From Acytostelium subglobosum LB1 (taxonomy: Eukaryota; Evosea; Eumycetozoa; Acytosteliales; Acytosteliaceae), in NCBI RefSeq assembly GCF_000787575.1, contig NW_012236512.1:62001-126000 (forward strand): DNA of 64,000 bases, in the 5' to 3' direction. The notes beneath the pieces were generated by a model that was given only the letters and a program-made list of their open reading frames with translations, was not told where the DNA came from and ran no database searches. Made by a program: the position numbers and the translations under genes. Positions 2,476 to 61,964 of this stretch are shown piece by piece (positions within the stretch are counted from its first letter, which is position 1; each line of letters begins with the position of its first letter).

Positions 2476-2683
2476 ATAGATCTATCAATCATCCAGTTAG
2501 TACTTCTGCCATAGCCGTTGAGATAAGATGTTTACTTATTAATAAACAACGTCGTTGCAAATGACTGTTTCTGAAACTATTGAGTGTGTCTATCGCCAGG
2601 GACCAAGTGATAAAAACGAAGAAGTAGACCATCACTTTAGATATTGTGTACAACAAATAGAACACAAACAAACACATAAGCAC

Positions 2684-4126: not shown

Positions 4127-4194
4127 CCAGCTGGCGGGCTGGTCACGTCTGTCCGACAGTGTGGACACAGTGTTTATTGTTTCTTCAGACCGAG

Positions 4195-6144: not shown

Positions 6145-6241
6145 GCTGTCGTTGACCTATATATATATATATATATATATTATATGTTTACCTTTGATGA
6201 AACTGACTTGGAGTGAACTTCAATAAGACCCCTTGTCTCTG
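6145..6241. promoter_or_regulatory. Short divergent promoter with (TA)n
   Basis: The 97 bp between the divergent starts of the mannosidase and the first FNIP gene include a (TA)n tract at about 6158-6181. It is the only space available for both promoters. No specific factor site is recognised. Confidence 0.4.
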
Positions 6242-8107: not shown

Positions 8108-8381
8108 TAGTGACATATATCTATAAACTTATCATACTTTAATTAAAAAATTGATCAGTCTTTCCCAAAAGGGGTTGTCGTCTCTCGTTTTGGTGGGTGG
8201 GTGTGAGTCGACGTTGAGAAACCCACTCTGACTCCGACAATTAATTTTGAGATATTCAATGGTTTTTGAGATATTTATTCAACTGGATTCGAATCATTGA
8301 GAGAGGATGTGAGACAAATCATTCATTCATACATTCATTCATTCATTATTGATATGGACATCAAGAGATACATACATAAAT
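8108..8381. other. Spacer with (ATTC)n microsatellite
   Basis: AT-rich spacer between the FNIP and ankyrin genes. An (ATTC)n tract occupies about 8320-8347, just upstream of the next ATG. A palindromic GATTCGAATC at about 8287 resembles a tRNA T-loop, but no tRNA folds around it. Confidence 0.5.
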
Positions 8382-10775: not shown

Positions 10776-10878
10776 ACAGCCAACTTCGTTCTTTGGGATC
10801 ACTTTTTAAAAATAATATCGCTACTTCATAGAAAGAGTGAATCGATCATTCAATCAATCATGTTTAGAAAGGGACAAG

Positions 10879-12871
10879 ATGGAACAGTTAGTGCATTACA
10901 TTATCAATCAATCAAACAAGTTTATATCACTCCCAATATATATAAGAATAGTTGCAACTCACCTTGCTCAAATTGACTTGTTATGTCTTCTCTTGTTGTG
11001 CAAGAGTATCTATTTGAAGAGAAGTAGTATTGCACCGATGTTGAAGCATCAACTTGGATCTGACATTGCAAAGAAGTTGAGAACATTTAAGCATTTATCT
11101 ACAACATTTGAAACATTCACTTACCGTCACCCATCAACATTGAAGGTCGACAAACACTCTAAACCTCTTCAAGTTGGAGATATACCATCGTCAGTGACGC
11201 AGTTAAAGTTCAGTTCATACAGCCAACCTCTTCAGGTTGGACTCATACCATTGTCAGTGACGGAACTATCATTCTTTTCATATTATAAACAATTTCAGGT
11301 TGGATACATACCATCATCGGTGACAAAGCTGTCATTCAGTCATTTCAATCAACCACTTCAGGTTGGACACATACCATCATCAGTGACCCGGTTGTCATTC
11401 GATATATTCTTCAAACAACCTCTTCAGGTTGGGCACATACCATCATCTGTGACACAACTATCAATCGGATTATTCAAACAATCTCTTCAGATTGGAGTTA
11501 TTCCATCATCTGTAACACACCTGAGATTCGGATCATTCTTTCAGCCTCTTCAGACTGGACATATTCCATCATCGGTGACACACCTGTCATTCGGATCACT
11601 CGAACAACCACTTGAAGTTGGACATATTCCATCATCAGTGACACAGTTGACCATCGAAGATTATCGGCATCCTCTCAAAGTTGGACATATACCACCATCA
11701 TTGGTACAATTATCATTACATTTCAGCCAACCTCTTGAAGTTGGTCATATTCCATCATCAGTTACACAGTTGTCAATAGATATATTCAATAGACCGCTTC
11801 AAGTTGGACTTATTCCAACATCAGTAACACAACTATCATTAGGTGGTTTCAATCATCCACTTCAGATTGGACATATTCCATCATCAGTGACGCAGCTATC
11901 ATTAAATAGTTTCAATCAACCACTTCAGATTGGACATATTCCATCATCCGTGACAGAGCTGTCATTAAATAGTTTCAATCAACCACTTCAGGTTGGACAT
12001 ATTCCATCATCAGTGACGCAATTAAAATTCTTACCAATTCGATCAACCTCTTCAGGTTGGACATATTCCATCATCAGTGATTCAGTTGGATTTCTCATCC
12101 TTCAATCAACCTCTTCAGGTTGGACATATTCCATCATCAGTGACACATCTATCATTCTATACATTTGATCAACCCCTTCAAGTTGGACACGTTCCAATTT
12201 CAGTGACACATTTGGTATTTGGCTATCAGTTCAACCAACATCTTGAGCCTGAATACATCCCATCAGTTACCTCACTATCGCTTCAGTGCACTCGGTTCTC
12301 CCATGCCAACTTCAATCAGCTTCTTAATCACAGTCAACTCACCGAGCTTCATATTCACCATCATACTAACAATACCACCGACATCAGGTGGACCGAAGAC
12401 ATCCCAAACATATATCTTGGATCATTCCTGGATGATAATCTTGATACTCTCACAAGATGGAACAGGCCTCTCAATTTGATCATTCACGTCGAGGCAACAG
12501 TTATACCAAAGAAAATACACGAGGTTGTGCCACACTCCATTTTCTCGCTACTAAGGATATTTCCGACCCTAACATTGGAGATGTACTTAGGTGACTCTTC
12601 CTATACGAACAATGACTTTCAAATTGTCTGCAGACTGATCGACTCTGAAACAGTGCTATTTGTCCCCAAATTATACACCTGTCGAGAGGAAACAAAGGAA
12701 GGCGATGGTATTGGATCATTTTGGAGAATGCCACACGATGTGAGGGATGATCAATCGTCCACCCCCAGGCCCCAAGTGGATCATGATCCACTCAGAAAGA
12801 AATCGACACAACAGTTGGCACTTCTAAAAAAGAGCATATTGCTGCAATACCTTGCGATGTATGGTAAATAA
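10879..12871 (+). CDS. FNIP-repeat protein, highly regular array
   Basis: The start is the ATG at 10879 (MEQLVHYIINQ). An F-box-like hydrophobic head (about 70 residues) is followed by about 17 FNIP repeats of 22 residues with the consensus FNQPLQVGHIPSSVTQLSF. The DNA of the units at about 11150-12240 is itself nearly repetitive (about 66-nt period), so these repeats duplicated recently or are kept alike by conversion. The frame slips by one base near 12037 (CCAATTCGATCAA). Removing one A restores the L-x-F-x-x-F-D-Q-P-L spacing exactly, and the array then runs on to a non-repeat C-terminal domain (HSQLTELHIH...). The stop is at 12869. Probably a protein-interaction scaffold; its target is unknown. 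Confidence 0.75.
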
Positions 12872-13056
12872 TAAAGCACCTATTACATTTAATGATAAAT
12901 AAAAATATTCCGGGCCACGTTTTGAAGCTTAATTAGGTCCTTCCTCTATTATAACTACAACAGTGTTCTTTTCTTCTGTCTTCTGGTTTTTGTGTTGAAA
13001 AATGACCTCTTGGAGATATGATATGCACAAATATTTGGTTTGTTTATTGTTGCCAC

Positions 13057-14446
13057 TTACCAACGGACAAGTGACAGCTCAAGCTTAGGGATGTTAAATA
13101 GTGCCTCAACAGCGGAGTCAAGGAATTGGACAGCCTTTTTCCTTATTTGTGAAGGCGGATACATGTTCAATTTAAGATTGATAAGGCCATTTGGTTGGGA
13201 GCATATCCATTGAACTAGTGCCTGTGTAGTCTCAACCCTATGGACTGTAGTGTGATGTAATGTATGGGTCCTAGTTAGTTAAGTAATAGAGACTCCTTAC
13301 TCACTCTTCTCCTTCATTTATATTATATAGAGGGATATTCTTAATTGCTTACCAGGGGGATTGCCTTCGTCATCATAATAATAGCTTCTTAGCAGATGAA
13401 ATGAGACCAGTGATTGGCTCAATGACTGGTTGGAGTCAAAAACGAAGATTGAGAACGTAGTTACAAGGTGAGTGATTGTTGTGTTAAGCGAGAGTGCCTT
13501 TGATATATCACGTTGTTGATGTTCAGACAATTGAGCGTCGTCGCAACTCCAAATGCACAACATGAGTTTGGTGACAGTCTTGTTTTTCTTGATGGTATCG
13601 CACAAATATATTATCTCCTCTGACTTGAATTCAAGCTTTGGTGGATGCTCTTCAAGGTGCTCATCATCTTGGACACTGTTACTATGAAGACATAATGTTT
13701 GGAGTGCTGGTAGTTGAAAGAAACGAGCCAAAATAAGGACAGGGATATTGAACCTGGCTCTAAAAGAAATGTGCTTGAGGTTTGTTGACACAGATGTAAG
13801 GCGTAACGTACGAAACATATCGTTTTCAGGGGACTCATCCGATCGGCAGTCGATAGCAAGTGTTGTAATGTTTGGCAAGGACCCGAGAGACCTGACTATC
13901 TTTGCACAGCTTTTATCATCCACGTACCTGTCATCGACCAGGGCAACTGAAGCGAGATTGCACCATTGGTCAGACGTAATTGTGTTAATGATATAATCTA
14001 TCATGTTGTGATGTATTCTAAATTTGGTACAGAACTGACCAATAGTGATCTGCAAGTGCTCCACTGGCGAAATGAATGACCTGTTTCCATCAAAAAGAGG
14101 TGATATATTCGCAAGATGATCTGCGCTTTGCACTCGCAACACTCTAAGATGCTTGATGATGCAGTACCTTGAATGTGATCCCTTGAGCATTCTTGTCAAC
14201 GCGAGATGTCCAATACGTGATTGTCCTTCAATACCAATATCGTCGATTGAGCTGGATATCAGTTCAAACCATTGCGAGATGAAGAAGATGGTAATTGCAT
14301 TGTACTGCTGAGAGGAGATCCATTGGTGGATCTTCGTCTGGTTCTATTGGCCATCGAGAGTCGCTGATTACCAACCTGATGATCTTCGTCAGTAAGATAT
14401 CTGATAAGTTTGGGTTTGGGTTCTGTGTGCGCATGTCTGTGCTCAT
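13057..14446 (-). CDS. F-box-like/LRR-like dictyostelid protein, frame interrupted
   Basis: ATG at 14446. The N-terminus reads LSDILLTKIIRLVIS...LLSAVQCNYHLLHL, an F-box-like start. The continuing frame (WFELISSSIDDIGIEG) is offset by one base at about 14262-14272. Removing one A in GCAATGG joins them. The middle (14199-13354) has irregular leucine-rich strands (LPNITTLAID, LPALQTLCLH, KTVTKLMLCIW). An exon at 13270-13057 (ALVQWICSQPNGLINLKLN...) reads well as coding. The intron between 13352 and 13271 has good GTAAGC...CTAG ends, but the phase needs one more base in a C5 run at the donor. The stop at 13057 overlaps a possible GTAAGT donor, so the 3' end is uncertain. Function unknown. Confidence 0.55.
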
Positions 14447-14732
14447 ATATGATATAATGATATGCTAGTTGGTTGGTTGTGCTTTGAATGAATTAGAAGT
14501 TTAGTGAGTTTGGGAATAACACCAAACACTCCAATGACCAATTTCAGATTAGCACAACTATTATCAAAGGCATTGAACAACAACAAATAATAATAAATCA
14601 CATCCAACTTGGAAGTTCACTTTCTAAAATATCTTTGATTCAATCACCAACACAGGTCGCATCTTGTGAAACACTACATCAATCACACACATAATCTTTT
14701 ATTATTTTTGTTGCAATCAGATAGAAACAGAC

Positions 14733-16604
14733 ATGATGGAGCAGTTACCGCATTACATTATCAAACAAATATTTGATGAACTGGATGAAGATGATCCACT
14801 TGATGTATTGACATTGGGATTGTCATGTAGGTCAATGTTGGTGCTGTTGAACAACATGACACAGTATCATATTCTTTGGAATATCAATCAACCACAGTTA
14901 CCAAAGGAGTCAACAATATTCAATCAGTTAACGACATTGACTCTATGTCATCTATTCAATGATGAACTCAACTCCATCACGTGCTTTCCAACATCACTTC
15001 GAACATTGGTGTTTGGTGATCGATACAACACACCAATCAGAGCAGGAGTGTTACCTTCAACGATGATCAACTTGACATTTGGAGCAGACTATGATCAATA
15101 CATTGATAAAGGAGTACTACCAGAATCATTACAAACCATTGTGTTTGGTTCAAACTTCAATCAACCAATCACTCTACAACCAACTATAATCAATCGTCTT
15201 GTAAAGTTCCTTGGTAATCAGTCAGAAACAACAAATAGTACTCAGCATAGACTACTCCCAGCCTCGATCACCTCAATAACATTTGGTGATTGTTACAATC
15301 AACCCTTTGAACCAACATCACTGCCTCCACAGTTGACCGCACTATCATTCGGAAGGGACTTTAACCAACCCATTAGAGGCCCACTTCCAACATCACTGCA
15401 CAAGCTTACATTCGGAGCACTATTCAATCAAACAATACCCGATGGAACAATAGATTCATTGACAGAACTAAGATTAAGCAATGATATCTCACCTCACTCA
15501 TTCACTATCAACGCTCTTATACCCTCAATCCTATTATTCATGGCACCAGACAACTCGATCAAGTCACTTGGCTCACTAGGTCACTCACTGACACGACTAA
15601 GTCTCGGTCACCATTTCAACGAACCACTCGTTCCAGGTTATCTCCCAACGACACTCATCCAGTTGGAGTTTGGATATTGCTTCAATCAAACACTACTACC
15701 AGAGTCACTACCAAATGCAATCCAGACACTAAAGTTTGGATATCTGTTCGATCAAGACATCACTCTACTACTACCTCGTTCCCTTCAATCACTGACATTG
15801 GGAGGATGTTTCAACAGACCAATATCACCTGGATCCCTGCCATCAATCACATCACTTGAGTTGAGCAATTCATTCAATCATGTACTGAGTGTTGGCTCGT
15901 TACCCAGATCACTGATCAAACTCAACCTTGGTTTCGAATACAATCATGTGTTACAACATGGTGTATTGCCATCGAATCTCACCGACTTGACATATTACCA
16001 ATTCAATCAACAAATCACACCAGGTCTCCTACCGACCTCACTAAGGTCTCTACGGTTTGGGCAAGGATTCAACAGCTTGATCGAACCAGCGTCATTGCCA
16101 GAGTCGTTAACTGAACTTGACTTGGGATCACAGTATGACCTGCCATTGGAGGAAGGTGCCATTCCAGAATCAATCAACTATCTTGGATTTGGCATTCATG
16201 AACATAACCCGATATCATTAGGTATTCATCATTTTCCCAACTTGACACGGGTGTCAGTGCCATCAATGTACTTTGTCTATGAAGTAGCATTACCAACAAC
16301 AATTAACAACATTAGGATAAGGGATTGTGGATCATACCTCACAATCAACAGGATTTTGGACACGAAGCTTAGCTCTATACACTTGTCAACAGTGGACACC
16401 CGTATCAATTATAAGCAATATGGTTCAATGATAAGTGGGTATTTGATCAACATTGGAACGATACACATCCAGAGTGTACATCAACGTCACGATCATCCAG
16501 AGAGTTTCAACAAGCTCTCAATGCGTCGCAACAGGATGTTCAAAGTGCATCACTACAATCGATCCAAGGGTGTATTCAAGCTGCTTGTCACTGCAGAGGC
16601 ATAA
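14733..16604 (+). CDS. FNIP-repeat protein, intact
   Basis: Single open exon of 623 aa starting MMEQLPHYIIKQIFDEL, the classic F-box-like opening of dictyostelid FNIP genes, followed by SCRSMLVLLNNM. About 17 FNIP repeats (LPxSLTxLxFGxxFNQPI) run from residue about 75 to 510. Three stretches break the regular spacing, including one at about 155-180 (TTNSTQHRLLP). The last 100 residues form a non-repeat tail shared in style with the other FNIP genes of this block (HSFPN/ITI strands). It is the only FNIP gene in the window with an unbroken frame and serves as the reference for the others. Likely adaptor or scaffold. Confidence 0.82.
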   Translation: MMEQLPHYIIKQIFDELDEDDPLDVLTLGLSCRSMLVLLNNMTQYHILWNINQPQLPKESTIFNQLTTLTLCHLFNDELNSITCFPTSLRTLVFGDRYNTPIRAGVLPSTMINLTFGADYDQYIDKGVLPESLQTIVFGSNFNQPITLQPTIINRLVKFLGNQSETTNSTQHRLLPASITSITFGDCYNQPFEPTSLPPQLTALSFGRDFNQPIRGPLPTSLHKLTFGALFNQTIPDGTIDSLTELRLSNDISPHSFTINALIPSILLFMAPDNSIKSLGSLGHSLTRLSLGHHFNEPLVPGYLPTTLIQLEFGYCFNQTLLPESLPNAIQTLKFGYLFDQDITLLLPRSLQSLTLGGCFNRPISPGSLPSITSLELSNSFNHVLSVGSLPRSLIKLNLGFEYNHVLQHGVLPSNLTDLTYYQFNQQITPGLLPTSLRSLRFGQGFNSLIEPASLPESLTELDLGSQYDLPLEEGAIPESINYLGFGIHEHNPISLGIHHFPNLTRVSVPSMYFVYEVALPTTINNIRIRDCGSYLTINRILDTKLSSIHLSTVDTRINYKQYGSMISGYLINIGTIHIQSVHQRHDHPESFNKLSMRRNRMFKVHHYNRSKGVFKLLVTAEA

Positions 16605-18629: not shown

Positions 18630-21600
18630 TCAAAGTTGTTCAGCAGCAGCATTGGTACCAATGAACTCGATGTAATGTGGAGATGCCTTGATATACTTGA
18701 CTGCATTGTTCTTCAAGATCATCTCGCTCAACAGATTGTATCGATCTTTGGAAAGGCTACATGATGCGACACGAGTGTTAGTCAATCAATCAATCAGAAT
18801 TGACTTTGGTCACTACTTACAAGAGAGGTATTCCACGCTTGAGACCTGGATCATCCTCACCATGTGAATCAAGGAATGGTGAGCCGAGGAATCCAAAGCA
18901 AGCATGATCAAATACGATGGCTACGATCGATAACTCCATCAGTAGATAGAGACCAATGTCACCACAACATGTTTTTGAATGCCAGTTGATCTCGTTGGCA
19001 CCATTCCGTTTGCAACAGGATCCAATACAGATGGCTCGGCCACAGAGTAGGCATAAGGCCTGATCAGAGTTGTTCTTGGTTAGATTACAGGTGGAGCAAA
19101 CGAATGTACGTTTGGACAGATGGAAGAATGTGTTTGGCAGTGTCACCAGCTTGAACTGAGGTGGTTGCCTCTCGACAACATCCTTTGAGATCAAGTGCTC
19201 TTGAAGAGGCTGCTCCAAGAATATCTGATGTCTGGTGCGATGTACATTGCCATTGATGTACGCAATCAATTGAACGAGGTACTTTGGTGAGAGCTCCATT
19301 GATGGCAGGGGAGTGGAGGTGCTGCCCATGAGGACACTATCGAGTAGGACAAGCTTCCTAAGATCAACGCAGAGTTGATAGAATAGTCTGTCATTGCCTC
19401 TAGGCACCTCGGATGTGGGCGAGGTGAGCGCCTGTTCAAATTGCTGTGCAGTCAACTCCAAGTAGTTCTGAAGTGTCAGTTGAGGACGACCAGTAACACT
19501 CAAGTCCACGTAGACCTGATGAACCATCCTCTCCAAACATAATGATCCTGCAGGTTCCTTCTCACTCCAATTGCCACTGCGCAGATTCAACACCTTATGA
19601 TATACATATAATACATTGGAGAGATGTCTTAGCATCTGTCCAGTCTTCTCATCAACTGTTTGTTGAAGGTTCCATTGGCTGATAATGATTGATTGATTGA
19701 TGTATGCGTGTTAGAATTCGATCGATCAAACAACCAAAGTATAACATACTTATTCCTTGATATGAATTCCAGATTGTTGATTGTTGAAGCGAGCAACATC
19801 GATATCTTGGTGTCTGGTGATGGTAGTTTACTTTGTACTACCTTGCCAAATGCTTCGAAGCACTCGAGGAGTTTGGATCCAGCAAAGCCATCTGCCAAGT
19901 ACATTGCAGTGTGACCTGATGGTTGGTCGTCGTGCTGATGATGATTGCTGGTGTGTAGGTGCTGTAGTACTGTCAGTCCAACAGGTGCAGGTGGCAACAA
20001 CGTGTTGGAAAAGAAGTGGCACAATGGACATAGTCGGTGCGTGTTGTGATTGAACCTCTCCATCTTGATGTAACACTGATAGTGTACGGTGTGTCCACAT
20101 ATCTGTGCGATGGTCTCGCTCTTTGACACGTCCAGCTTGATCGAAGAGGCAAAATCTTGTTGATCGACCACACCGTTGGAAGGGTCAATCGAAGATCTGT
20201 CATTGAGCACATGCGCGATGCCAATGTTCTGTATCAAACAGAAGTATCCAATGGGATTGTTGAGGTCATTGAGGTAGTTCTCATCGCGACATATAATACA
20301 CTCTCCTTTGACATCGTGCACCTCATGAGCAGAATGCGAGCCATCCAGGGTCATGTCTTCATCGCTGTCCATGTGCTCATCCTCCAACAGGTTTGAGAAC
20401 CTCAGCTGTTCCTTTGCAATCGATTCCATTGCCTTACGCTTGGCCTCCAGCATCCTTCGCTTCCTGTCCTCCTTGTCCTGCATTGTCTCCATCTCGAACG
20501 CATCACACTCATGACCATTCTCCAAGGTTGGCTCCTTTAGACTCTGCAACAACAATGCCACAGTCGGGTGGAAGAACTTCATCGATGATGTCGTGAGTAC
20601 CAAGTCCAGCAGATCCACAATCGTTTGATATTGTGATGCGCTGTCAACGCGATCATGTTGTCTTGATATGCACATCTTCTTGATAGTGTCGTGCTCGGTT
20701 GGATGAGTGTCCAGAGCCAACATCATCAAGTGTAGGATATTGTCCACAGTGTCCGATCGGAAGATCACACGCTGTTGTGTGTCATACTCGTCCAGGGGCA
20801 CGGGGTCGACCAGTTGCACGGTGCAGTGGAGTAGCGAGAAGTATATCCTCTTGTAGAGTTGGGGCGACAGTAGCAACTGGCCGATCGCATCAAAGTCCTG
20901 ACGCAATGGAGCCAAAGTGTTGACGGCAACTCTTCGCACATTGTTGTTACGATGCTGTTGTGGAAGCGTCGAGACGACCTCCTCTGCCCTCTCGCGGTAT
21001 CTATACGTGTAGCCATAGTAGTACTTGTTGTAGTACGTGTAGTACTCGGGCTTGAGTGAGTAGCGGCCATGACTAGAGAGGGTGTTGGGCTGGACATATA
21101 TGGCCACCTCCTTGAGCACAGAGTCGACATCGTTGGCGTCAAAGTTGACAAAGCGCAACTCAGTGTTGAGCAATGTGTTGAGCTTGGTGTACGTCCTGTT
21201 CTTGACGATCAAATGATGAATGATGTCGTACTTGATGACGTCTCGTGTTGTTTGCTTGCCAATCAATGATCGCTCTGTGATCAACACCATGAGGAATTGA
21301 TAAAAGTACACCAGTACACCTGTTTGGTAGTTGTTCAGTGCTGTGTTGCTCTGGAACAATGTGTCCAGTCTCTTGAAGTGACTGAAATATGTTGTGATGA
21401 AGTGGTCCGCCTTCAAAGATGCACAGGACATCTGCTTCAAGTATAGATCATAGATGTATATATACTTGAGGTATGGATGTGATTGATAGCTATGTACCTG
21501 CAACTCAATAGGGTCTCCATTCTTGAGCCAAAGTCGTGACTTGCTCTCTGCAATAAGGTTGTCAATATTGGCTGGTCCATATAATGAATGTTCAACCAAG

Positions 21601-24177
21601 TCCTGATTTTGTCTATGATTGATTGAGTGAGTGATTATGTGTGAGTGAGGGAGTTGAGTGACATTGATCAATGAATCAAACTTACAGGAATGATGCTGCC
21701 ATGTCTTGGAAGGAGAACTGATCGAAATGTAGAATGACCAGTGAGAGTATAAGAGAGAGACAACGGTGAATGGGTAGGTTAAAGGATACGCCAACCATCT
21801 GTTGCTTGATGAGTGTTGATGCTTTGCAAAGCACTGCAATGGTGTTTGAAATGGCCAGTTCATCTCCGGCTGTGGCGACATTTGGAGGCTCTGGAACCAA
21901 TGTCTTTAAGATCTTGAATGTTACATTGCAATGATTCATCATCAACAAGTGTCCATGTGAGAAATATGATGTCCTAAAGTTGATTGATAATGTCAGCAGC
22001 ACACTCACTCTCTCAATCAATCAGAATCGATAAATCAATCAAACATACCTTAACTCTGAGAATACAAGCTCGCTACGAATGTTGGGACAACTAAAGTGGA
22101 GTAATGCAGCAAACTGTAGGAGTGGCACGATCTTGGATGGGTTGGTGCACATTAGATCGCGGAATATAGGCTGATGTGAGAGTATCATGGTGAGGTCTTT
22201 GATCGCCACGTAGAACTGTTCCAGTTTGCTCATACTGCCCAATTCGCTCTGATATGTAAGTGGTTCGTTGTCCACGATGAGGTACTTTGGAGTGGCGCTC
22301 TTGATGTAGTCGAGGAATATGTCCAATGCTTTGTAGTGCTCCATCACGTACATTGCAATCTGAGGACGTGTGAATATCTGAATACTCAGTGATATGATTG
22401 AGTTGCTGCCGTCATATGCACCATTGAGTAGACTGTCAAACATGGCCGGATAGTTGGACACAAAGACAGCTGCAAAGTCAAACTTGCATGATCGATCGAA
22501 TGTCAATGAAGTTACCCAATTGATCAGTTGTACCTGTCTAGAGTGATGTAGTTTCTTTCATTTTTTGATTGATTGATTGTGTGAGTGAATGAGTGAGACA
22601 AGGTTCGACTGGTGGCGCGCCACATAATCACCATCATTACATACTTGGATATTTGATACGAGTTGTGCCAATCTACATCCCTTTGGATCTAGGATGTTGG
22701 GCTCAGTGTGAAGGTAGTGCCTGTTGAGGCGCATCATGAGGTTGCAAAAGATACGCTTGAATGATACCAGTTGTGTAAGGTACTCAAATAGATTGAGTAT
22801 ACTGATTAGACTGGCGAATGGTAGTACCTTGAATCGCTTGGTGATGGTCAGCTTCAGGTTGGTCTGCTTTCTGATCATTGACACCACCACCTGACATTGT
22901 TGATGTGATCCGACATAGATGATGCAACGACCATTGTTATGAGCGTAATGTGCATAGTCTCTACACATTGCTTGTGAACGAGGAGTCAATGTCTCCAACA
23001 GCACAGACATCACCTCGCCAAATGATGTTACATCGTCATTAAACATAAGTATTCCATATTGGTCATCATCTAGTAGCTGTTTGATTGATTGATTGAATGA
23101 TATAGTGAGTGAGTGTCTTTGTCAAGTCTTTGACTGCCGCATCGTGATACATACAAACTCAAATGGATGTCCAGGGTGGAAGAAGTAAAGTGATCGATTG
23201 CTGAGCACGTCAGAGTCCTCTGGAGTGAGCTTGATGTTGGCTAGGGGCTGAAGGATCATGTCGAGGAGGATGCCCAACAATCGCTCACATCGGGCAACAT
23301 GATCGGGACCAAGTGATGCGAGTGGTCGAAGTATGACGTCGTCGGGCTCGGTGCGCTCAGTGTGAGCATCACAAAAGCCATCCTTTGCCCATGAGTCCTC
23401 GTCACCACAGTCACAGCAACCATTTGAGCTGACTCTAATGCGCTTGATCTCGTGGCCCACATGCTTGCCCTCGTCAAAGCACTTGCTGCACAGTATACTA
23501 GTCTCATCCTTCTGACATCTCTTGCACTGGAATGCCCAATCATTGTCCTTGAACACGTAGCCGCACGTGCTATCCCTCTGGCTGGCCTTCATTGCGCTGA
23601 ATGATCCAGCACCACCGGTCATGTACTCCTTGAGTGGTGACAACATTGAAGTAAAGGGATGCGCACTACCAGTGAATGCAATGACCTTGATATAGTTCTC
23701 CAACTCTATCCAACATTGCGCGCTCATAGTATCGGTGGAGTGCAAGTGAGTGAATGGGTCGAATGTTGCCAATGACTGTATTCGTGTCTTGATCTCATCA
23801 GACTCTGATACATAATCAATCATCTCATCATCAAGACTGACTTGTTCTAATAATGGTGTTGGTTCTATCTCTTCCATATGATCATCGTCATTGTTATTAT
23901 TATTGTTGTTATTGTTGTTGTTTGTGATATTGAAGTAATTGCTCAACAAGTTAAAGTTGAAGCCATTCAATAGATTACGACCAATATCACCTATTGATGT
24001 ATTATAGTATTGTTGAACTTCTTGGTCATCTTCATCGATGGTTTGGTCAAGGTCACCATCATCATCGTCATCATCGTCATAAACGTCATCAACGTCATCG
24101 TCTTCATATTGTAATCTAGTATCATCATCATCATTATCATCTTCCGAACTATTATTATTATTACTATGTTCGCTCAT
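18630..24177 (-). CDS. UBR1-type N-recognin E3 ubiquitin ligase
   Basis: Seven exons: 24177-23155, 23076-22645, 22533-22049, 21973-21686, 21612-19750, 19678-18821 and 18756-18630; 1691 aa with consistent phase. The 5' edge of exon 3 could instead be 22554. An acidic/Asn-rich N-terminus precedes a UBR box (TCGYVFKDNDWAFQCKRCQ... CSKCF...GHEIKRI...GCCDCGDEDSW) that binds basic N-degrons. A ClpS-like segment (ILMFNDDVTSFGEVM... VGSHQQCQVVVSMIRK) is expected to bind bulky hydrophobic N-termini. The RING-type region is CIICRDEN...ICGHTVHYQCY...CPLC. The C-terminal UBR-specific autoinhibitory/zinc domain (CSTCNLTKNNSDQALCLLCG... HGEDDPGLKRGIPLFLSKDRY) is complete. Its length matches animal UBR1/2 (about 1750 aa). 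It acts in the Arg/N-degron pathway in cytosol and nucleus. Confidence 0.93.
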
Positions 24178-24311
24178 TGTATCTACAATGGGATCTCTAT
24201 CTATCTGTATCCCTTAATTATTATTATTTGTTGTGCGAATGAATGAATGTCACATACAAAGAACTTCAAATAACTAGAAACACGAATGTCTTCACAATTC
24301 TCACAACTAAC
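24178..24311. promoter_or_regulatory. Compact divergent promoter, UBR1-like / CWF19L1
   Basis: Only 134 bp separate the start codons of the two divergent genes, so the core promoters must overlap. The sequence is AT-rich with a TTATTATTATTTG stretch. No defined factor site is recognised. Confidence 0.4.
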
Positions 24312-27611: not shown

Positions 27612-29809
27612 ATGTCTACTATTTTTCATCCATTGGTCTCAAATATTGACCAACTAATATCTAACAATGAAGATATTGAGGTGACATTGCTCCTGGATGG
27701 TTCTGGATCCATGCAATCTCACTTTGAAACTCTTAGATCCACATGTCTTATGTTGGTAGACAAGTTCCTCAACATCCCCATTCAAGTGATTCAATTCTCA
27801 ACCTCATCCAGAGTTGAAGTAGACTACACTTCCGACGCCAACATCCTGAAGAAAGCCATCTCTAGTAAGTTTATTAATATTATTTTTTTAATAAATGATT
27901 CTAATATTATTAACTTATTTGATTTAATTTAGAAATGAAGATGATAGGCGCTGGTACCAACATGAAAGATGCTTTTAAGGTTTTAAGGGATAATCTTGTT
28001 AGAAACTCTCTAACAAAGTCTACTAATCCAATTGTTATCTTCATCACTGATGGAACTGCCGATAATGACCCAACTGCAGAGGCAAAGGCACTGATGAGCC
28101 TTGTACCAGCTCCGAAAGTTGTTGCCTTGGCAGTTGGAGCTAGTGCCAATCAGGGCAAGTTAAGTGCTATCTTCCCTGGCCAGTATGTCTACCCAATCAG
28201 CGACTTTGGAATGCTTGATAGCCTGTTGAAGAACCTGACAGTGGCACAAAAGACCAAGTCCTGTATCAAGATGTATATGTTTCCAGCCAACAAGGATTTA
28301 CAAACCTCCAAGGACAACCTGACCATCGACTTCTCGGTGGAGCCAGAGGATCCAATGAAAGTCATCCCGATTGGATCAACAATCTCGTTCCCTTCCAACA
28401 ACTACTTCAGCGCCGAGTCGATAACACTTAAAGAGGCTGCTTTCCAGAGACGACCTGTGAAGGCCAGTGTCACCCTGGAGGTGAAACCAGCGGCGCGGGC
28501 CTTTGGCCAATTTCCATCGGTTATCTCTTTTGAGTGCCATATCAATGGCTCCACCAAGGTCTACAAAGGTACTTGCCAGTTTCTCATTGGATACCTGGCT
28601 GGGGACTTTATTTACAAGAAGAACCCCAAGCATCCTATTAACATTCTTGTCTGGGGACCAATGGGCTCGGGAAAGAGCTCCCTGATCAATGGAATCATCG
28701 CCATGTTTAGCCACCAATACAAGGTCAAGAAGATCCTCAAGATCTCCAGGAGACATGACCATGTCACCAAGGACTACATGTGTCACAGGATTGCAGACTT
28801 TGCAGATACATCTGAGCCACTCGGAGCACTGATTGCCGACAACATAAAACTGAACTTCTGGGACCCATGGGGCCTGACCACGTCCAACTACCAGAATTTG
28901 AAGCTGATGCACTTCCTCGAGGGTCGCGTGCCAAAGGATCAGCCAATGAACGATTCTTTCAGCCATCATCCGGTCATTGAGGACCAAGTGACCCATGCCG
29001 TTGTGTTCATGATTCCACTAGGTACTGCACTGCAGAAACCACTACTTGACAACCTGTCCAAGCTGATCGATACCACCCAAGACTTTGGCATCCGTCCAGT
29101 GGTAGTGGTCAACTTTGCAAACCAGATGCAGAACCAGGCCGAGGTGGAGAAGCAGTTCAAGATTATCCTGGATGCCAGTCATCTCTCCAAGGACGACGTG
29201 ATCATGATGGACAACTATGAGGACGAGCCCTACCGCATCCAACAGAAGGATCTCCAATATTGGTCACTTGTGGGGAAGTTGTTTGAAGAGGCCACCAAGA
29301 ACATCAAGTTGCGTCCAATGAAACCTGTCACATCGTCACAATGCTCAGGTGTTGGACCGTTGGCCCCTGACCTCGCCGCGCTCAACATCTGCGAATCTCT
29401 ATGTCGAACGACGTCGTGTGCCAACTTCAACAAGGGTGTGACGACGCCTTGCTGCGCATACTGTGGCAACCCACCAGTGGACATGAGAGCCAGCGCCATG
29501 GTGTGCGGAGAGCCATCCTGCGTCGACGTTGGCAAGGCAGTCAACACACCTCGTTGTGGACAGTGTGGCAAGCCTGCCGTCAACAAGAGCGCAGAACGTG
29601 TCTGCAGCTCATCCAGTTGTGTCAACCGTGGAAAGACTGTTCAGGGCAACTTCTGTGGCCACTGTGGCGCACCTCCATCGTCGGAATCCCCGTCGGCCAG
29701 TCCAATCAAGAAGAACCTCTGTCCATCTACTACGTGCCCTAACGGCGGCCAGGAGATTCCAAAGGGATTCAACTACTGTGCCATGTGTGGTGCGCTACCA
29801 AGTAACTAG
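27612..29809 (+). CDS. vWA domain + IFI44-like GTPase + C-terminal zinc-ribbon array
   Basis: Exons 27612-27864 and 27933-29809 (709 aa). Residues about 20-200 form a von Willebrand A domain with a complete metal site: DGSGSMQ, AGTNMKD and ITDGTADND. After a beta-rich linker, a P-loop GTPase starts at about residue 330: NILVWGPMGSGKSSLI, then DPWGL as a G3-like motif, and VVFMIPLG / VVVVNFANQM strands. This order resembles animal IFI44/IFI44L GTPases. The last 140 residues carry four CxxC-type zinc ribbons (CCAYCGNPP, RCGQCGKPA, FCGHCGAPP, YCAMCGALP), each with a second Cys pair such as CSSSSC. No signal peptide. Function unknown: the design suggests metal-dependent ligand sensing coupled to GTP-driven assembly. 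Confidence 0.85.
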
Positions 29810-44003: not shown

Positions 44004-45571
44004 ATGGTGGAGATCATATCATTGTCAAACTTGTTGATACAACAGATTATTTCAAACTTGGGATGCAATGTGGATCGTTTATGCTTTGTTCTTACATGTT
44101 CAAGGTTCTTAAGACATCGTGAACGATTCTTATTGTTCAATCTCGATCTGACTTATAGGACATTGGACTACTTTCAAGACTCAAAGCTATACAGTTATCT
44201 ACCTACCTTTCTCAGCCAGATCTATCAATCTTTCATGTTAAAGGCTGGCACTGATCAACCAACAATACTACATAAACATAATAGTGGTGTGTATATCTCT
44301 GCTGACGAGGACAGGCTACAAGTCAAGTCAAGTCACATTACTCACACTCATTCATGATCACAGATAAACAACCAATCTCAATACCAGATAATGCAACACA
44401 TGTTTGCTTTGGCGAATCGTTCTTGGAGTATGGCGACTCATTCAACTCGACGATACCACCCAACTGCATCCCTCCCTCGGTCACTCACCTTCAGTTTGGT
44501 TATCAATTCAATCAGACGTTGATGCCGGGCACGATACCCGACTCGGTGACACTGATCAAGTTTGGACACGGCTTCAATCAACCGTTGATGCCCGGCTCGA
44601 TCCCATCGTCGGTGACCTATCTAAAGCTGGGCTTCTGTTACGACCAACCGCTGTCCACGGCGGTGCTGCCAGCGTCGATCATCAAGCTCAAGTTTCGCTC
44701 GAAATACTCTTGTACATTAGCGCCTGGGTCGCTGCCAAACTCGATCGAAACAATCATTGGACTGCCGCAATTCAAAATCGCCATTCCCAACTCTGTCACA
44801 CAGCTCAACATTGGTCGACGCTTCAACTCGACCATCCCTGTCGGTGCCATACCAAACTCGGTCACCGGTCTCGTCATTGGCGAGTCGTTCAATCAACCAA
44901 TCAGTCGGGGCGCCATCCCCAACTCGGTCAAATACCTAACGTTTGGCGTACTGTTCAATCAACGCATCGACCCGGGTGTCATCCCTGCTTCTGTCATCGA
45001 CATACAGTTTGGTCCTCGGTTTAATCAGCCGCTGGTGGCGGGCGTCATTCCTCCTCACACCAAGTATCTCAGGTTCGGCACTGATTGGAATCAAGTGATC
45101 ACACCTGACATCATCCCGCCGTCAGTCACACACATCAAGCTTGGCCAGCAGTTCAATCAACACGTGGATCTAAAGAGTTGGGCGCCATCTGTGACGCACC
45201 TCATCCTGGGCTACCTCTTCCACTGCGACGACTATCCACAGTTCTTCAGCAAGAACACACTGGAATCGGTACTGTCGTCCGTTTCAAACATTCATCTACA
45301 GATGGAGGATGAGCTCTATGCTCTGGTGAACATCCGAGCGATCGACAAGGACGTTGTGTTTGTGCTCAATGAGAATCTGGAGGGAGGCTTCCTCTCGCTG
45401 CCTCGACTGCTCAGTCTGGCCAAGCAGGAAGGTTCAATCTATTGTCACGTGGCAAACAAAAGGATACAGACCTACGATGATGAAGACGACGAAGACGATG
45501 CAGAGGGTGCCGACAACAACAATGATCACTATGATCTGGAAGAATATGACAACGACAACATCGAACTATAG
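44004..45571 (+). CDS. FNIP-repeat protein (possible intron near 44284-44363)
   Basis: It starts MVEIISLSNLLIQQIISNLG, an F-box-like head (CFVLTCSRFL), then continues from about 44364 in another frame with about 14 FNIP repeats (IPNSVTxLxFGxxFNQPL). A frame change is needed between 44306 and 44354. Removing 44284-44363 or 44287-44363 (GTG...ACAG, 80 or 77 nt) as an intron joins the frames as HNNKQPISIPDN or HNSDKQPISIPDN. The donor is weak (GTGGTG/GTGTGT), so a missing base is the alternative. The C-terminus ends in an acidic run (DDEDDEDDAEGADNNND). Codon use is GC-richer than in the other FNIP genes. Probable scaffold or adaptor. Confidence 0.72.
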
Positions 45572-53321: not shown

Positions 53322-54433
53322 TTATTTGGTTGGCTTCTTGTCATCCTTGTCCTTCTTTCTGAACAAACTCCAGCTCTGCTTCTTCTCTGCTGGCTTTGAT
53401 GATGTCGACGTGGTGGAGGTTGTCGACGACGATGATGATGATGCGCCTGATGACGAAGGTGATGTCGAAGACGTCGATGACTTTGATTTGGATGACGACG
53501 AAGATGATGACTTTTTGGAAGAGCTGGTCGCAGGTTGTTTGTTAAAGGCTGCCTTGATCGCCGCTGCGAATATCTCATTGACGCCACTACCTGTGCGAGC
53601 AGCACACTCATAGAACTCCATCGCTCCTATCTCCTTTGCAAGTGCTACTCCCTGTGTTGTTGTAAGTGTGATCGATTTGATGTTGTTAGCATGCTTGCTC
53701 TGTCGGTCTGTTTATGTTGATGGTATCACAATCCTTACCTCCTCGCGTGTAATTGGTTTCTGATTGGTCTCTGCCAGCTTTGCCACCAGCTTTTTTGTCC
53801 TCCCTCAGATCGGTCTTTGTAGCCCACGAGAATGATTGGTGTACCAGCATTGCTCTGTGTGATCTCTTTCAACCACTTATACTTTATATTGTCCATCGAA
53901 TCCTTCTTGTCGACAGAGTAACATATCAAAAATACATCAGTCTAACGTACGTATATGTTAGTGAATGAACGAATGGTAGGTTGGTGGAGTTAAACTTACT
54001 TGGGGATATGATAGTGGTCTGAGGTTATCATAGTCTTCCTGTCCAGCTATATTGATTGATTGATTGAGTGGAATGTTCCAATTGATTAGAGTCAGTGTTT
54101 GTTTGAATGAATGATCCCAGTGATTGATTGAGACTCAGATGATGATCATACCTGTATCCCAGAGGACTAAATTTACAGGCTTATTATCGTACATTTCGAG
54201 GCAGTTGAAGTTATCTGTTGTTTGTTGTATGTAACAGTCAGTCAGTATGATTGTTCATGCTCCTGTCCTGTCCTGTCCTGTTGTGTCTACAAATAGTATG
54301 TCTTACCAAATACTGTTGGGACGTAGTCTGTTGGGAAGGCTTTGGTTGTGTATAGAATCAGCAGAGATGTCTTTCCAACAGCGCCATCACCGACAACAAC
54401 GACCTTAACAGTCTTTTTGATTCCTGTTGCCAT
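53322..54433 (-). CDS. Rho-family small GTPase with Ser-rich tail, no CAAX
   Basis: Exons 54433-54307, 54214-54152, 54046-54000, 53941-53739 and 53651-53322. The start [23 protein letters not shown] carries the P-loop; then VPTVFDNF (switch I), [18 protein letters not shown] (switch II), and KWLKEI with a Rho-type insert. In exon 4 the conserved run [14 protein letters not shown]...ITREEG is broken by two one-base slips, both at A runs (about 53815 and 53790). With one A fewer in each, the exon is 201 nt and in phase with both neighbours, so I read them as assembly errors (255 aa). The C-terminus has a long Ser/Lys tract and ends [16 protein letters not shown] with no CAAX box. Membrane attachment would have to rely on basic residues. 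Confidence 0.8.
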
Positions 54434-54740: not shown

Positions 54741-57700
54741 TTAACTGTATGTTGGTTCATAGTAGGACAACAAGATGTTTGGAACCAAACGATCGAGATT
54801 CTCTGGTGCCAAGTAGGTCTCCTTGACATCCACATACAGTATGTCAACACGTTGATGCAGTGCCTGAAGTACATCCCTGAGTGGCTTATCATTTGGTGTC
54901 AACTCCTTCCTCTCCACACTAGCAGCCTGTCCAGTTGATGGCTCATACTCAGCTGGCACAGAGTATAATATCACGTTCTGAGGGAATGCCTGGAGGAGAC
55001 GTGCCACTCTCTGCACAATGTCCGAGTACTTCATGGTCTTGATCACACCAAACTGGAAGGAGATGGGCTGTCCGGTGATGCTGTTCTTATGTTGCACCAT
55101 ATGGAAGTTGATCGTCGTCTTGTTATATACATAGTTGAAGTAGTCTGGCACGAATGGTATGCGTGGCAGATCGCGAAGTTGTTGCTGGCGCTGGCAGTAG
55201 ATGATGTCGCCGTGTCCAATCTCATAGGACTTGAGCGTGCGGTTTGGATCCAGCTGGTAGACCAGGCTCATTGACAGGTCGCCATAGAGCATCAATGGTC
55301 TGTCTGGACTTGCTCCAAGCTTCTGATTCAATATCGGTACCAAATATGATATTGAAGTATTTGCCTGGCACACCTTTGATGTCAAGAACTCAATAGACTG
55401 TGTCTTTGCATCATAATACTTGAAGAATATCAATGCATGATCAGGTTGGATTGGATCAAAGAATAAGTTCTTCTCCTATTTAGATTGATTGATTGATTGA
55501 TTGAGCGTGAGTGAGTATGAATGTGTGGATGTGGGGGTGGAATGATTCCAGATTCTGATTGAGATCACTTACATTCGGGGTTGGAGAGTTGGATACCTCC
55601 ATGTGAAGTCTGATCTCAACTTGTCCAAAGTATGAGATATATTGATTGACTGATTGATTGATTGAGTGAGTGGAATGAAGTTAGCGAATGATCAATGATC
55701 AAACAGTTGGAGTGTACACTTACATATATCTTCATCATCAAGGATGATTGGACACCGACTGACTTTGGCAGGTTTGGACTTGTTGTTGTCCCAGAACCAT
55801 ATCCTTATTCTCTCAAAGGCGATGCCATACATCATTTGTAGGAGCAGCTTGAACTCCAACAGAGTGGTGTACTTCCTGATCTTGACAGTCTGGTGCTTGT
55901 TGAAATCGATCAGATCAAATGATTGCCGGGACTCAAAGTCCGTGTCACACGTTAACTTTATCGTGTGGTAGTAGTACGTCTCCTCATCCGACTTTTGCTT
56001 GGCATATGCCTCTGCATCATCCACTGCGCCACTTGTATTGAGGTATCTATGATTACAATACAGTTGGATATGTGATGATCTCATGTGACTATATGATTGT
56101 AGACTACGTGATTGATTGATGGTTAGTGGGTGTGATTGAGTGATTGATTGGAACTATTCCATGATGGGTGATGACATACTATCTGTTATCAAGATTGCTT
56201 TGGGACATAAAGTGGATGGTCACATTGACAGAGATAGTGTCATTCTCAATGAATCCAGAGTTCTCATCACGAAGAGTGTCCAAAGACATGAACTTCTTGA
56301 ATCCCCAATTGATGCTGCTGTAACAGAATGTGTGGAATGAGTCTAATTGATGATAAGTCAGTGATTGATTGAAGGAATGATCGGACCAGGATAGAGGGTA
56401 CTTACACTTCCTCTCAGACTTGGATGGATTCAACTTGTTGATGATGGACAGTACGAAACAGATGTATTGTCTGCGCTTGGGGAAGGTCTTGGGGTCGACA
56501 AAGTCTAGGTATAGGGAGAAGAAGTTCTGAGCACTGTTGCCTTTGGGGAACACGTAGAATCTCCAGTTGGTAGAGTTCAATGTGAATGTAGGCGAGTAGA
56601 ATGACTTCTCCAATGTCGAGAAGTTAGTTATATCGTAGGAGAAGTTGCAGGGTCCTTCACCCATGTTGTTGTTGTTGATTGTTGGTGTTGGTGTTGGTGT
56701 TGGTGATTCCATCAATGTTGTCGTGGGATTGGGACTTGGACTGGAACTTGGACTTGGACTGATGGGACATGTAGATGGGAGACTGAGGGGTGACTCAATC
56801 CTGAATGGCTTGGGACTGAGGTAGTCATAGGACACAGTGATCAACTCAACATTGATGATAATAATGTCATTCTTGATGAAGCCATACTTTGGGTCCATCA
56901 GTGTATGATTCTTGATGAACTTCTGGAAGAGCCAACTGAATGAGTTATATGAATAGACATTGCTGATGACTATAATGAATGATGATGATGAGCTGTTAGT
57001 GTTGATGATGAATGAGTAGAGCACTACTACAACATACATTTCTTAAAGTGCTTGTCTGGATTGAGTTGGTTCTCAATCTCAACAGAGAATGAGATGTGCT
57101 TGCGAAGCAATGGAGTTGTCTTGATGTCCACGAGATCGAGATAGATTGAGAAGAAGTCGGTAAGGTTCTCCAATGGATAGCTTATTACCTGCCACTTACT
57201 ACCCGCTATCTTATACGTTGGTGACAGTATCAACTCTGTTGACTGACCCTTTGTAGCGTGGAATGTGAAACGTCCACAATCCGCTGACTTGTCCAAGTTG
57301 GACTCGATCTCAAAGCTAATGTATTGATTGATAGTTAGTATGAATGTGATTGGATGATTGAATGAATGAATGAATGAGGGGAGTAGGACATACTTTGGAG
57401 TGGACTCATTGTAGTTGGATGACATGACTGTGAACTCGATGTTGATTTGGATGGAATCATCGACCATGTAGCCATTGTCGGGGTTGAGGAGAGTGGAGAG
57501 AAGGACAAACTTGGGGAAACCAAAGTTCATGTTCTTGTCGTCGTAGAGGTGATCGACCCACTTCTTGAGGTTCCTGTCGGGATACTTCTGATTGACAATC
57601 TCAATGGCAAAGAAGAGATGCTTGATCATCAGTGGCTTGAACTTGACGTCGAGCAGATCCAGGTAGACCGAGAAGAAGTTGGGCGACGAGTAGCCGTTGG

Positions 57701-58672
57701 GGAAGATATAGATGCGCCAGTTGGAGCCGCACGAGTGGAACGTGGGCGAGTAGAAGTTCTCAAAGTGATGTGAGAAGTTGGTCATCTTGTAGGAGAATCG
57801 TCCAAATGGCTTGGGTCGCAGTGCGTCCGTGTTGTCAATGGTCACTGGCGACTGTATCTCCACCTTGATCATCAACTTGTCATCGATCAAATATCCATTC
57901 TCCGCCTTGACCAATGTCTGAAGACTCAAGAAACTGACGAATCCCCAATTGACTCCTTTGAATGAGAACTTGTGGCTTGAGTCTAGGATGGGAGGGCGAG
58001 GCGAGGGCGAGGGTTAGGGCGAGGGTTGAGGGCGAGGGTTGAGGGCGCCAAGATCAATCAATCAAACATACTCTTTCTAACATTCTTCTTGTTGTTTAGT
58101 TGATTGAGTAGGGTAAGGGTTAGACCAGCATCCTTCTCGAGTAAGGGGTTGTGACCAATGTCAAAGTAGTCGAGGAAGATGGAGATGTTGCCTGGACTGT
58201 TGTTGCCTTCGGGGAAGATGAGCAGACGCCAGTTGGCGCCGCACAGGTTGAAGGTTGGCGTGTAGAAGCTCTCCTTGTACGTGGAGAAGTTGCCAATCTC
58301 CACGGTCTTGCAGCCATTGGTGGCCTCGTTAAAGTCGCCAAAGATGGAGGCGGCCGTCGACGACGATGGCGAAGCGCCCGATATTATCGGGTGGGCAGTG
58401 TTGCTTGTGTTTGGGTTGGCGCTGCCCTGCCCTGTGTTTGCGTCCACGTTTGATTTCTGTGTGCTGGCAGTCAAGGCTATTGACTGCTGCTGCTGCTGGT
58501 GAATGGTTTGTTGATTCTGAGTTTGTGTTTGTGGTTGGGTTTGTTGTGGCTGCTGGGGTTGTTGGGTTTGTGGCTGTTGTTGTTGTTGCTGTGGCTGTTG
58601 TGGCTGCTGTGGCTGTTGTTGGGGCTTAGGTTGAAAGAATGTATCCGAGAGTGTTGCCCAGAAACCCTTCAT
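54741..58672 (-). CDS. MATH x4 protein with USP7-like C-terminal domains and no peptidase
   Basis: Eight exons: 58672-58072, 57982-57394, 57315-57038, 56969-56406, 56342-56180, 56088-55724, 55619-55573 and 55475-54741; 1113 aa, total divisible by three. Exon 6 could start at 56103 instead. An MKGFWATL head and long poly-Gln/Pro stretch lead to four MATH domains, each with a FYSPTF-xxCGxNWRxxIFPxG motif and SVYLDLLD (MATH1 FYTPTFNLCGANWR). The C-half matches the ubiquitin-like/ICP0-binding region of USP7: IRKYTTLLEFKLLLQMMYG, RIWFWDN, FFKYYDAKTQS, YEIGHGDIIYCQ and FPQNVILYSVP. The USP catalytic domain (Cys and His boxes) expected between them is absent; the MATH4-to-UBL distance is too short to hide it. 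Likely a ubiquitin-pathway adaptor. Confidence 0.82.
57988..58049 (+). repeat. G-rich intronic minisatellite (GGGCGAGGGTTGA units)
   Basis: The plus strand is a run of GGGCGAGG, GGGTTAGGGC and GGGTTGAGGGC units inside the first intron of the MATH/USP7-C gene (its template strand). It is the only such G-rich block in the window and has repeated GGG runs at short spacing, so a G-quadruplex is possible. Confidence 0.8.
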
Positions 58673-60311: not shown

Positions 60312-61964
60312 TTACTTTGTGGTTGTCTTTCGTTGTGCCAACATCTTCCTTGGCACTGGAATACCTGGCATCATAGGAGCAGGCGGCTTTATCACATACT
60401 TGCGTTCAGTAATCGTTGGCTTCTTATTGTTTGTCTTCTTTGACTTGGACTCCACCTCTGCCTCAACCTCGTCGTCCTGGTCGACTACCTTGACTTTTGG
60501 ACTCCTTGTTTTATGAACACGATCATACTCCACATCGACCTTCATCTTTGGACCATCATATATGTTCTTTTCCTGTTGGTCGTTGTCGTCTCCATCCTCC
60601 ATATCATCCGATTCGTCATCGTCGTCGTCCGAGTCTTGGTCATCCGAGTCGCCATGGTCCATCACCTCAACATTGCACAGTGTGATACAAGTTAGACGTG
60701 CGCCAGTCTCTGCCATTCCAACCGGCAGTTCAGTGTCAATGTTCCAAACAACGACATTGCCATCCGATGATATGCTGACCACATAAGGCTTCTTTACCGA
60801 GTCGAATCTCAACACTTCCAATCCCTTGACTCGTGCCGAGTTGCCCTCCAACTGTTTGATCACCTTGCCATTCTTATAATCCAACAATGTAATCAACTTG
60901 TCCTCGCCTCCAACCATCAATATGTCATCCTAAAGATTGATTGATTGAGTTAATGAGTGAGTTGATGGGAGGGATGGTTCCAGGACACTTACATCATAGT
61001 ACTTCATTGTGAGTACGGGTTGCTTGAACTCAAAGCTGTGCAACTCTTTGGCGTCGGTTGTGTAGATGGCAACTCGGTCGGCGTAGACGACAGAGTAGTG
61101 GTTGCCAGTGGGCGACCATTGGACGATGAGTCCCTCCTTTGGCAGTTTGTTGTAGTTGGCCGCCACTCCACGCATTAGATCCCAGAGGAACAGACGACGA
61201 TCCTTGCCCACGCTCAGAGCAGCCTTGCCACTCGGATGGATGGACAGTGAGTTGACAATGTCCTTGTGGCCCTTGAGTGTCTTGAGACACTCCCAGTCGG
61301 CCACACGCCACACGCTCAGTGTGTGGTCGCGCGACGCTGCCAACATGTGCGAGCTGCCAAAGAATTGGATGGCGTTGATCCAGCCCTCGTGCTTGGACAG
61401 TGTGCCAAACTCCTCGCGCTTTGACAAACGGTAGACACGCATGGTCTCGTCAGTGGACGAGCTGACCAGGAACTCGCCGTCGGCTGTCGTGCCCACCGCC
61501 TTGACGCAGCCCGAGTGAGCGGCGTATGCAAACACCTGTTGGAGGAGTACCTCCATCTCGTCTGGGTTGCCCAGCTCTGGATGATCAGCCATCAACAATG
61601 CCTCATAACCAAGTATCGAATGTTCATAACATCCAATTGTAAGCAATGGACTATACTCCTTCTCTATTACAGGGGTAGCAGTTGTTGTGTTGTCTGTGGT
61701 TGTGGCTTTAGTCTTTTTGCCTTTGGCGGCCGATGCCACAGGAGTGTCTGCCTTCTTAAGGATTGACTTTGTTGATGTAGTAGTAGTTGTTGTTGTTGTA
61801 GTTGGCACTTCAGTAGTGACTACAGCAGCGGCAGTTCTCTGCTTCTTCTGTACTATAGTTTGTTTATCATTTTGAGCTGTTGTCTTCTCTTCGTCAACAG
61901 CAGTGACTTGTCTTTTCTTTTGTTGCTGTTGCTGCTGTGGTTGTTTCTTAGTTGATGTCGACAT
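60312..61964 (-). CDS. WD40 protein, PAK1IP1/Mak11 homologue (60S ribosome biogenesis)
   Basis: Exons 61964-60993 and 60929-60312 (529 aa, phase 0). A low-complexity Lys/Gln/Thr head of about 110 residues precedes WD40 repeats: LLTIGCYEHSILGY, AHSGCVKAVGTTADGEFLVSSSTDETMRVY, HEGWINAIQFFGSSHMLAASRDHTLSVW, GHKDIVNSLSIHPSGKAALSVGKDRRLFLWD. This order, especially the DLMRG and NYNKLPKEG stretch after the fourth blade, is that of PAK1IP1/Mak11, a nucleolar factor for large-subunit assembly. The tail is acidic (DSDDQDSDDDDD) and then basic with a Pro end, fitting a nucleolar protein. Confidence 0.86.

Follow-up and report, generated by a model that had tools for sequence, protein, structure and literature searches.

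USP7 (HAUSP) is laid out as a MATH domain, a USP peptidase domain, whose catalytic residues in the human enzyme are C223, H464 and D481, and five UBL domains (UBL1-5). The human protein has been described as starting with a disordered N-terminus which contains a polyglutamine region and as carrying its catalytic domain at residues 207-560 (PMC7419626), and the TRAF domain and UBL1-2 are presented as its main binding modules (PMC7419626, PMC13142314). The pocket of the MATH domain uses D164 and W165, D164 being reported as indispensable for contact with P/A/ExxS peptides (PMC7419626), along with R104 and other residues (PMC13142314). A further pocket lies in UBL2, where the acidic loop DELMDGD (residues 758-764) binds KxxxK motifs. 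In pull-downs, E759, D762 and D764 were each reported to be needed for ICP0 peptide binding, which the D762A mutation abolished; in human cells, the D762R/D764R mutation is reported to lower the recovery of partners, not to abolish it, by about two-fold for ICP0, to 35% for GMPS and to 21% for UHRF1 (PMC4457826). With regard to activity, UBL1-3 are described as a binding platform which does not directly influence it, and UBL4-5 with the C-terminal tail as the part that activates the enzyme, trans-activation being reported only at 60-110 uM (PMC6335408).

Other known proteins share parts of this make-up. Pseudo-DUBs such as USP39 are derived from DUBs, are expected to be non-enzymatic and are assigned scaffold or complex roles; USP39 is reported to have retained a USP domain in which the usual catalytic residues are missing, and whether it is really inactive is debated (PMC10919355). 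In plants, class I and class III proteins have been described with several MATH domains in tandem and no catalytic domain, class I showing no recognisable domain besides these and class III being the MATH/Filament group, and USP7-type UBL domains are described for neither class in that account (PMC3664471). In SPOP-type MATH-BTB proteins and TRAF-type MATH proteins, the MATH domain likewise acts as a partner-binding module. Over 40 TRAF-like proteins are reported as predicted in D. discoideum (PMC5758549).

The stretch of Acytostelium subglobosum LB1 DNA analysed here (the window, 64,000 nucleotides) was confirmed to hold a predicted gene that is a relative of USP7 without the protease. Its model comprises the following parts:

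58672-54741, minus strand: whole USP7-like gene model, 8 exons, 1128 aa, based on splice sites, phase and codon scores
58672-58072, minus strand: exon 1
57982-57394, minus strand: exon 2
57315-57038, minus strand: exon 3
56969-56406, minus strand: exon 4
56342-56180, minus strand: exon 5
56179-56104, minus strand: intron 5, 76 nt, GTATGT...CACGTAG, which connects the MATH part with the UBL part
56103-55724, minus strand: exon 6
55649-55573, minus strand: exon 7
55475-54741, minus strand: exon 8

An earlier note on this DNA had described all exons as being in phase, and the eight-exon model agrees: the seven introns are all GT-AG, open with GTATGT or GTAAGT donors and measure 63-97 nt, and their removal leaves a coding sequence of 3387 nt without stop or frameshift. 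Codon scores were trained on coding stretches from elsewhere in the window, 18 of 20 being used; the two that were dropped (20000-21500 and 61060-61960, minus strand) had stops in the frame taken. The assigned frame scored best of six in 7/8 exons, the exception being the 77-nt exon 7 (0.15 for the assigned frame versus 0.19). Intron 4 (56405-56343, 63 nt) has a length divisible by three and contains no in-frame stop, so that a form retaining it would remain open through MATH4.

The junction between the two halves of the protein lies at intron 5. Exon 5 ends in TA and the next base would complete an in-frame TAG at 56181-56179, yet this base opens the GTATGT donor and the G would thus be spliced out. 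Sixteen GT/AG pairs keep the frame open across this region (donors 56240-56166, acceptors down to 55991), three of which use the GTATGT donor and let the following exon start at 56103, 56088 or 56031; the exact join is therefore uncertain by up to 24 linker residues. The acceptor favoured in the earlier note, 56088, does keep the frame but is one of these three, and the present model uses 56103.

The protein predicted from this model can be divided as follows:

58672-58310, minus strand: N-terminal low-complexity region, aa 1-121; aa 1-118 are 67% Q/N/S/T/P
58309-57846, minus strand: MATH1, aa about 122-246, exons 1-2 with a phase-1 intron inside; Pfam and PDB sequence search
57803-57396, minus strand: MATH2, aa about 261-396, exon 2, no internal intron; Pfam, PDB sequence search and a MATH-like model
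57281-56833, minus strand: MATH3, aa about 409-535, exons 3-4 with a phase-1 intron inside; Pfam and PDB sequence search
56640-56215, minus strand: MATH4, aa about 600-720, exons 4-5 with a phase-1 intron inside; Pfam and PDB sequence search
56214-56004, minus strand: linker from the last MATH to the first UBL homology, aa 721-765, without USP7 homology, spanning intron 5 at the site of the USP7 catalytic domain
56003-55573, minus strand: UBL1 with the residues leading to UBL2, aa 766-884, exons 6-7 with the intron between; inner borders estimated
55475-55173, minus strand: UBL2, aa about 885-985; Pfam and PDB search, borders estimated
55226-55206, minus strand: UBL2 pocket loop YEIGHGD, aa 968-974, equivalent by alignment to human 758-DELMDGD-764
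55160-54741, minus strand: UBL3 with a short C-terminal end, aa about 990-1128; borders estimated, UBL4-5 absent

The arrangement of four MATH domains leading into a USP7-type UBL region, as first read from the letters, is borne out by Pfam and by matches to PDB sequences. Four stretches are matched by both MATH_2 (E=7.2e-76) and MATH (3.9e-38), and USP7_ICP0_bdg is found at aa 831-1064 (2.6e-34). In a phmmer search of PDB sequences, the last 390 residues hit USP7 at 5.3e-15, well beyond chance, in an alignment collinear with human 553-835, and UBL1 alone matches the USP7 structure 2kvr (E=0.0016). The MATH domains, searched against the same database, are all nearer to USP7 than to SPOP: 6.8e-8 versus 1.4e-4 for MATH1, 3.8e-7 versus 0.0019 for MATH2, 0.001 versus 0.034 for MATH3, and 8.9e-9 versus 1.1e-6 for MATH4, which was the best stretch of the four-MATH query. 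Among solved structures, both halves of the predicted protein are thus nearest to USP7, whose order they follow, with USP7-type MATH domains after a low-complexity start and then UBL1-3.

Structure models were less decisive for the MATH part. A model of MATH2, built from an alignment of four pieces (the window's own MATH domains) and reaching a mean pLDDT of 69.7, retrieved MATH folds with Foldseek; SPOP came first by E-value (8.7e-7) and USP7 highest by TM-score (up to 0.63), within the best 50 Foldseek rows. The fold search is undecided between the two families for MATH2 and the sequence searches favour USP7. The earlier note had called for a structure prediction of the C-terminal half, and UBL2-3 were modelled from the single sequence: USP7 UBL structures did come first in Foldseek, at TM-scores of about 0.2 and a mean pLDDT of 45.2, values too low for this agreement to count as independent evidence.

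What separates the protein from USP7 is the loss of the enzyme and of its activating part. The MATH4 alignment ends at aa 720 (human 195) and that of the UBLs starts at aa 766 (human 553), which leaves 45 residues, compared with 357 in human USP7 (196-552). The earlier estimate of about 50 codons was therefore right, as was the claim that this is too little for a catalytic domain of about 350 residues, and no peptidase family was matched. Since the human catalytic domain spans 207-560 and the part lost corresponds to 196-552, the loss would have occurred close to domain borders. At the other end, 78 residues follow the equivalent of human 835, where human USP7 has 267; by their number they suffice to complete UBL3 and are too few for UBL4-5. 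The expectation of five USP7-type UBLs consequently gives way to UBL1-3 only, with neither UBL4-5 nor the USP7_C2 match expected of the activating tail. In the Pfam search of the protein, listed to E 1 with HMMER filters that remove most matches above about 0.1, no peptidase (UCH), USP7_C2, BTB, RING or zinc finger was found.

These differences also set the protein apart from the other systems. It is DUB-derived and expected to be non-enzymatic, like the pseudo-DUBs, but in contrast to USP39 it does not retain a USP fold deprived of catalytic residues. It has the tandem MATH domains of the plant class I and class III proteins, followed here by USP7-type UBLs. Unlike MATH-BTB and TRAF-type E3 adaptors, it has in Pfam neither a BTB domain nor a RING with TRAF zinc fingers. 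Because the catalytic domain, UBL4-5 and the pocket residues which mark the USP7 enzyme are absent or changed, the protein is classed as a USP7-derived variant and not as a member of USP7.

The multiplication of the MATH domain, single in USP7, has left a trace in the gene structure. Introns 1 (58071-57983), 3 (57037-56970) and 4 (56405-56343) interrupt MATH1, MATH3 and MATH4 at the same place and in phase 1, the split codon lying 12 residues before the W165 equivalent in these three of the four domains, and MATH2 has no intron. The four domains are 31-42% identical in pairwise comparisons. The shared intron suggests that a MATH unit already carrying it was duplicated in tandem, one intron having probably been lost later. 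A tblastn search (E up to 0.01) of the rest of the window detected no second copy of the gene or of any of its parts. In viral contigs, six patterns from the UBL2-3 exon, which as derived from a single sequence reach close relatives only, matched 6 stretches, none of them a relative.

The binding pockets, judged against those of human USP7, are altered in both kinds of module. The motif corresponding to DWGF reads NWGF, NFGF, SWLF and NWGF in MATH1-4, so that D164 is kept in none of the four (N, N, S, N) and W165 in three (W, F, W, W). R104 is absent from MATH1, 2 and 4, and the alignment of MATH3 is unsure at this position; MATH3 is also the diverged copy, with SWLF in place of DWGF and the USP7 match of only E=0.001. 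In the UBL2 loop, YEIGHGD replaces DELMDGD, D758 being changed to Y and D762 to H with E759 and D764 kept. Owing to these changes, the protein may bind little of USP7's partners, or some of its domains may be only structural.

Collectively, these data suggest, with a probability of roughly 0.6, that the gene encodes a USP7-derived, enzyme-free multivalent adaptor. A USP7-family gene would have lost its catalytic domain, UBL4-5 and the activating tail, and its MATH domain would have been multiplied to four by tandem duplication. In the protein, which we infer to be translated from one mRNA, the MATH array would bind short peptide motifs of partner proteins and the UBL1-3 module a second set of partners, both sets being held together, probably within ubiquitin signalling and with a peptide specificity unlike that of human USP7.

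This reading presupposes a single intact gene, which is the best reading of the splice signals and homology. The locus could instead be split into two genes. The first would encode a four-MATH protein and stop at the TAG at 56181-56179, and the second would encode UBL1-3 from about the in-frame ATG at 56084 (M739), which precedes the UBL homology. The codon composition of the two halves differs somewhat (GC1 0.37 versus 0.48; GC3 0.66 versus 0.57), and the codon test does not set the exons on either side of the MATH/UBL join, 5 and 6, above the best introns: they score 0.21 and 0.22 bits per codon, and introns 2 and 3 reach 0.21 each in their best frame. We nevertheless regard two genes as improbable: the TAG shares its G with a GTATGT donor for which an in-phase acceptor exists, giving an intron whose 76 nt fall within the 63-97 nt of the other six, both halves match one protein without a change of order or strand, and the intergenic gap would be only 94 nt. 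An AATAAA signal is absent from the 400 nt past the TAG and present 20 nt past the final stop, a weak argument in the same direction given that about 0.14 would be expected per 400 nt by chance. That a segment carrying the peptidase dropped out during sequencing or assembly, which the earlier note had named as a possible refutation, is conceivable on a single contig but scarcely credible here: all Ns of the window lie at 1121-6659, the nearest to the gene being at 6659, the faulty join would need to yield a GT-AG intron of normal size and in phase, and UBL4-5 are missing as well, at a different place. A decaying USP7 pseudogene would account for diverged pockets and lost domains and is very improbable in view of the uninterrupted 3387 nt of coding sequence, the codon scores in favour of the assigned frame in 7/8 exons and the gain of extra MATH copies.

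With regard to function, the closest alternative to the adaptor is a decoy which competes with a full-length USP7 of the same cell for substrates and partners, either shielding them from ubiquitin-dependent decay or exposing them to it. Both kinds of USP7 binding module are kept without the enzyme, W165 persists in MATH1, 3 and 4 and E759 and D764 in UBL2, and the partial recovery of partners reported for D762R/D764R in human cells indicates that a changed pocket need not abolish binding (PMC4457826). This reading is nonetheless unlikely, since the residue reported as essential for P/A/ExxS peptides (PMC7419626) is replaced in all four MATH domains, R104 is lost from three of them, and the H at position 762 occupies a site where an alanine was reported to be enough to abolish ICP0 peptide binding (PMC4457826). 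A competitor for the classical USP7 motifs thus appears less likely than an adaptor with motifs of its own; of the earlier suggestion that the protein might compete for USP7 partners or scaffold them, the scaffold make-up stands, and competition is weakened by the changes at D164 in 4/4 MATH domains and at D758 and D762 in UBL2. It had also been proposed that the UBLs act in trans to switch on a separate USP. The C-terminal UBLs of USP7 are indeed reported to activate the enzyme, with a trans effect measurable at high concentration (PMC6335408), but the activating part, UBL4-5 and the tail, is what this protein lacks, and the 60-110 uM reported as needed in human USP7 (PMC6335408) make such a role most doubtful, leaving the proposal without a basis.

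The enzyme-free adaptor would allow a bolder, tentative extension, which we put at well below even odds: the lineage may have made USP7 into a pure recognition protein, its four MATH readers acquiring new specificities and the product, as a multivalent hub or decoy in its own right, steering many partners towards a different ubiquitin-dependent fate. If so, the reader function of USP7 would have been separated from its eraser function in nature. Recognition and catalysis by USP7 are usually told apart by engineered truncations or mutants, and a natural recognition-only protein would reveal which USP7 contacts remain worthwhile once the enzyme is gone. Such a case would also extend the pseudo-DUB idea to the loss of a whole fold, not just of an active site. 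Among the matches listed from open-licence PMC titles and abstract starts, no description of a USP7-type MATH-UBL protein without peptidase was found, and a database annotation of this architecture for dictyostelids may well exist.

Several other genes were noted in the window. About 300 bases from the USP7-like gene, the next gene downstream (53322-54433) resembles, by eye, a Rac-type small GTPase whose C-terminal tail is rich in Ser, and the C-terminal piece of this gene matches Ras at 0.00031, just under the Pfam cut-off. The same window encodes, at 23122-24213, a UBR-box protein (zf-UBR, 3.5e-20), possibly a ubiquitin ligase of the N-recognin type. A 628-aa ORF at 27923-29809, in which no Pfam family was found at E up to 0.001, shows by eye a P-loop-like GPMGSGKSS and, at its end, repeated CxxC zinc-ribbon-like units. 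At 394-2475, a Cu/Zn superoxide dismutase domain (394-1120, Pfam 3.4e-22) is followed by a long Thr-rich repeat tail with Asp-Pro, which contains a 100-base N run (1127-1226). FNIP repeats, which are typical of dictyostelids and, like the gene style, fit such an origin of the DNA, were found at 44306-45571 (Pfam 1.1e-88), and several FNIP-repeat-like genes were recognised by eye at 6929-16604.
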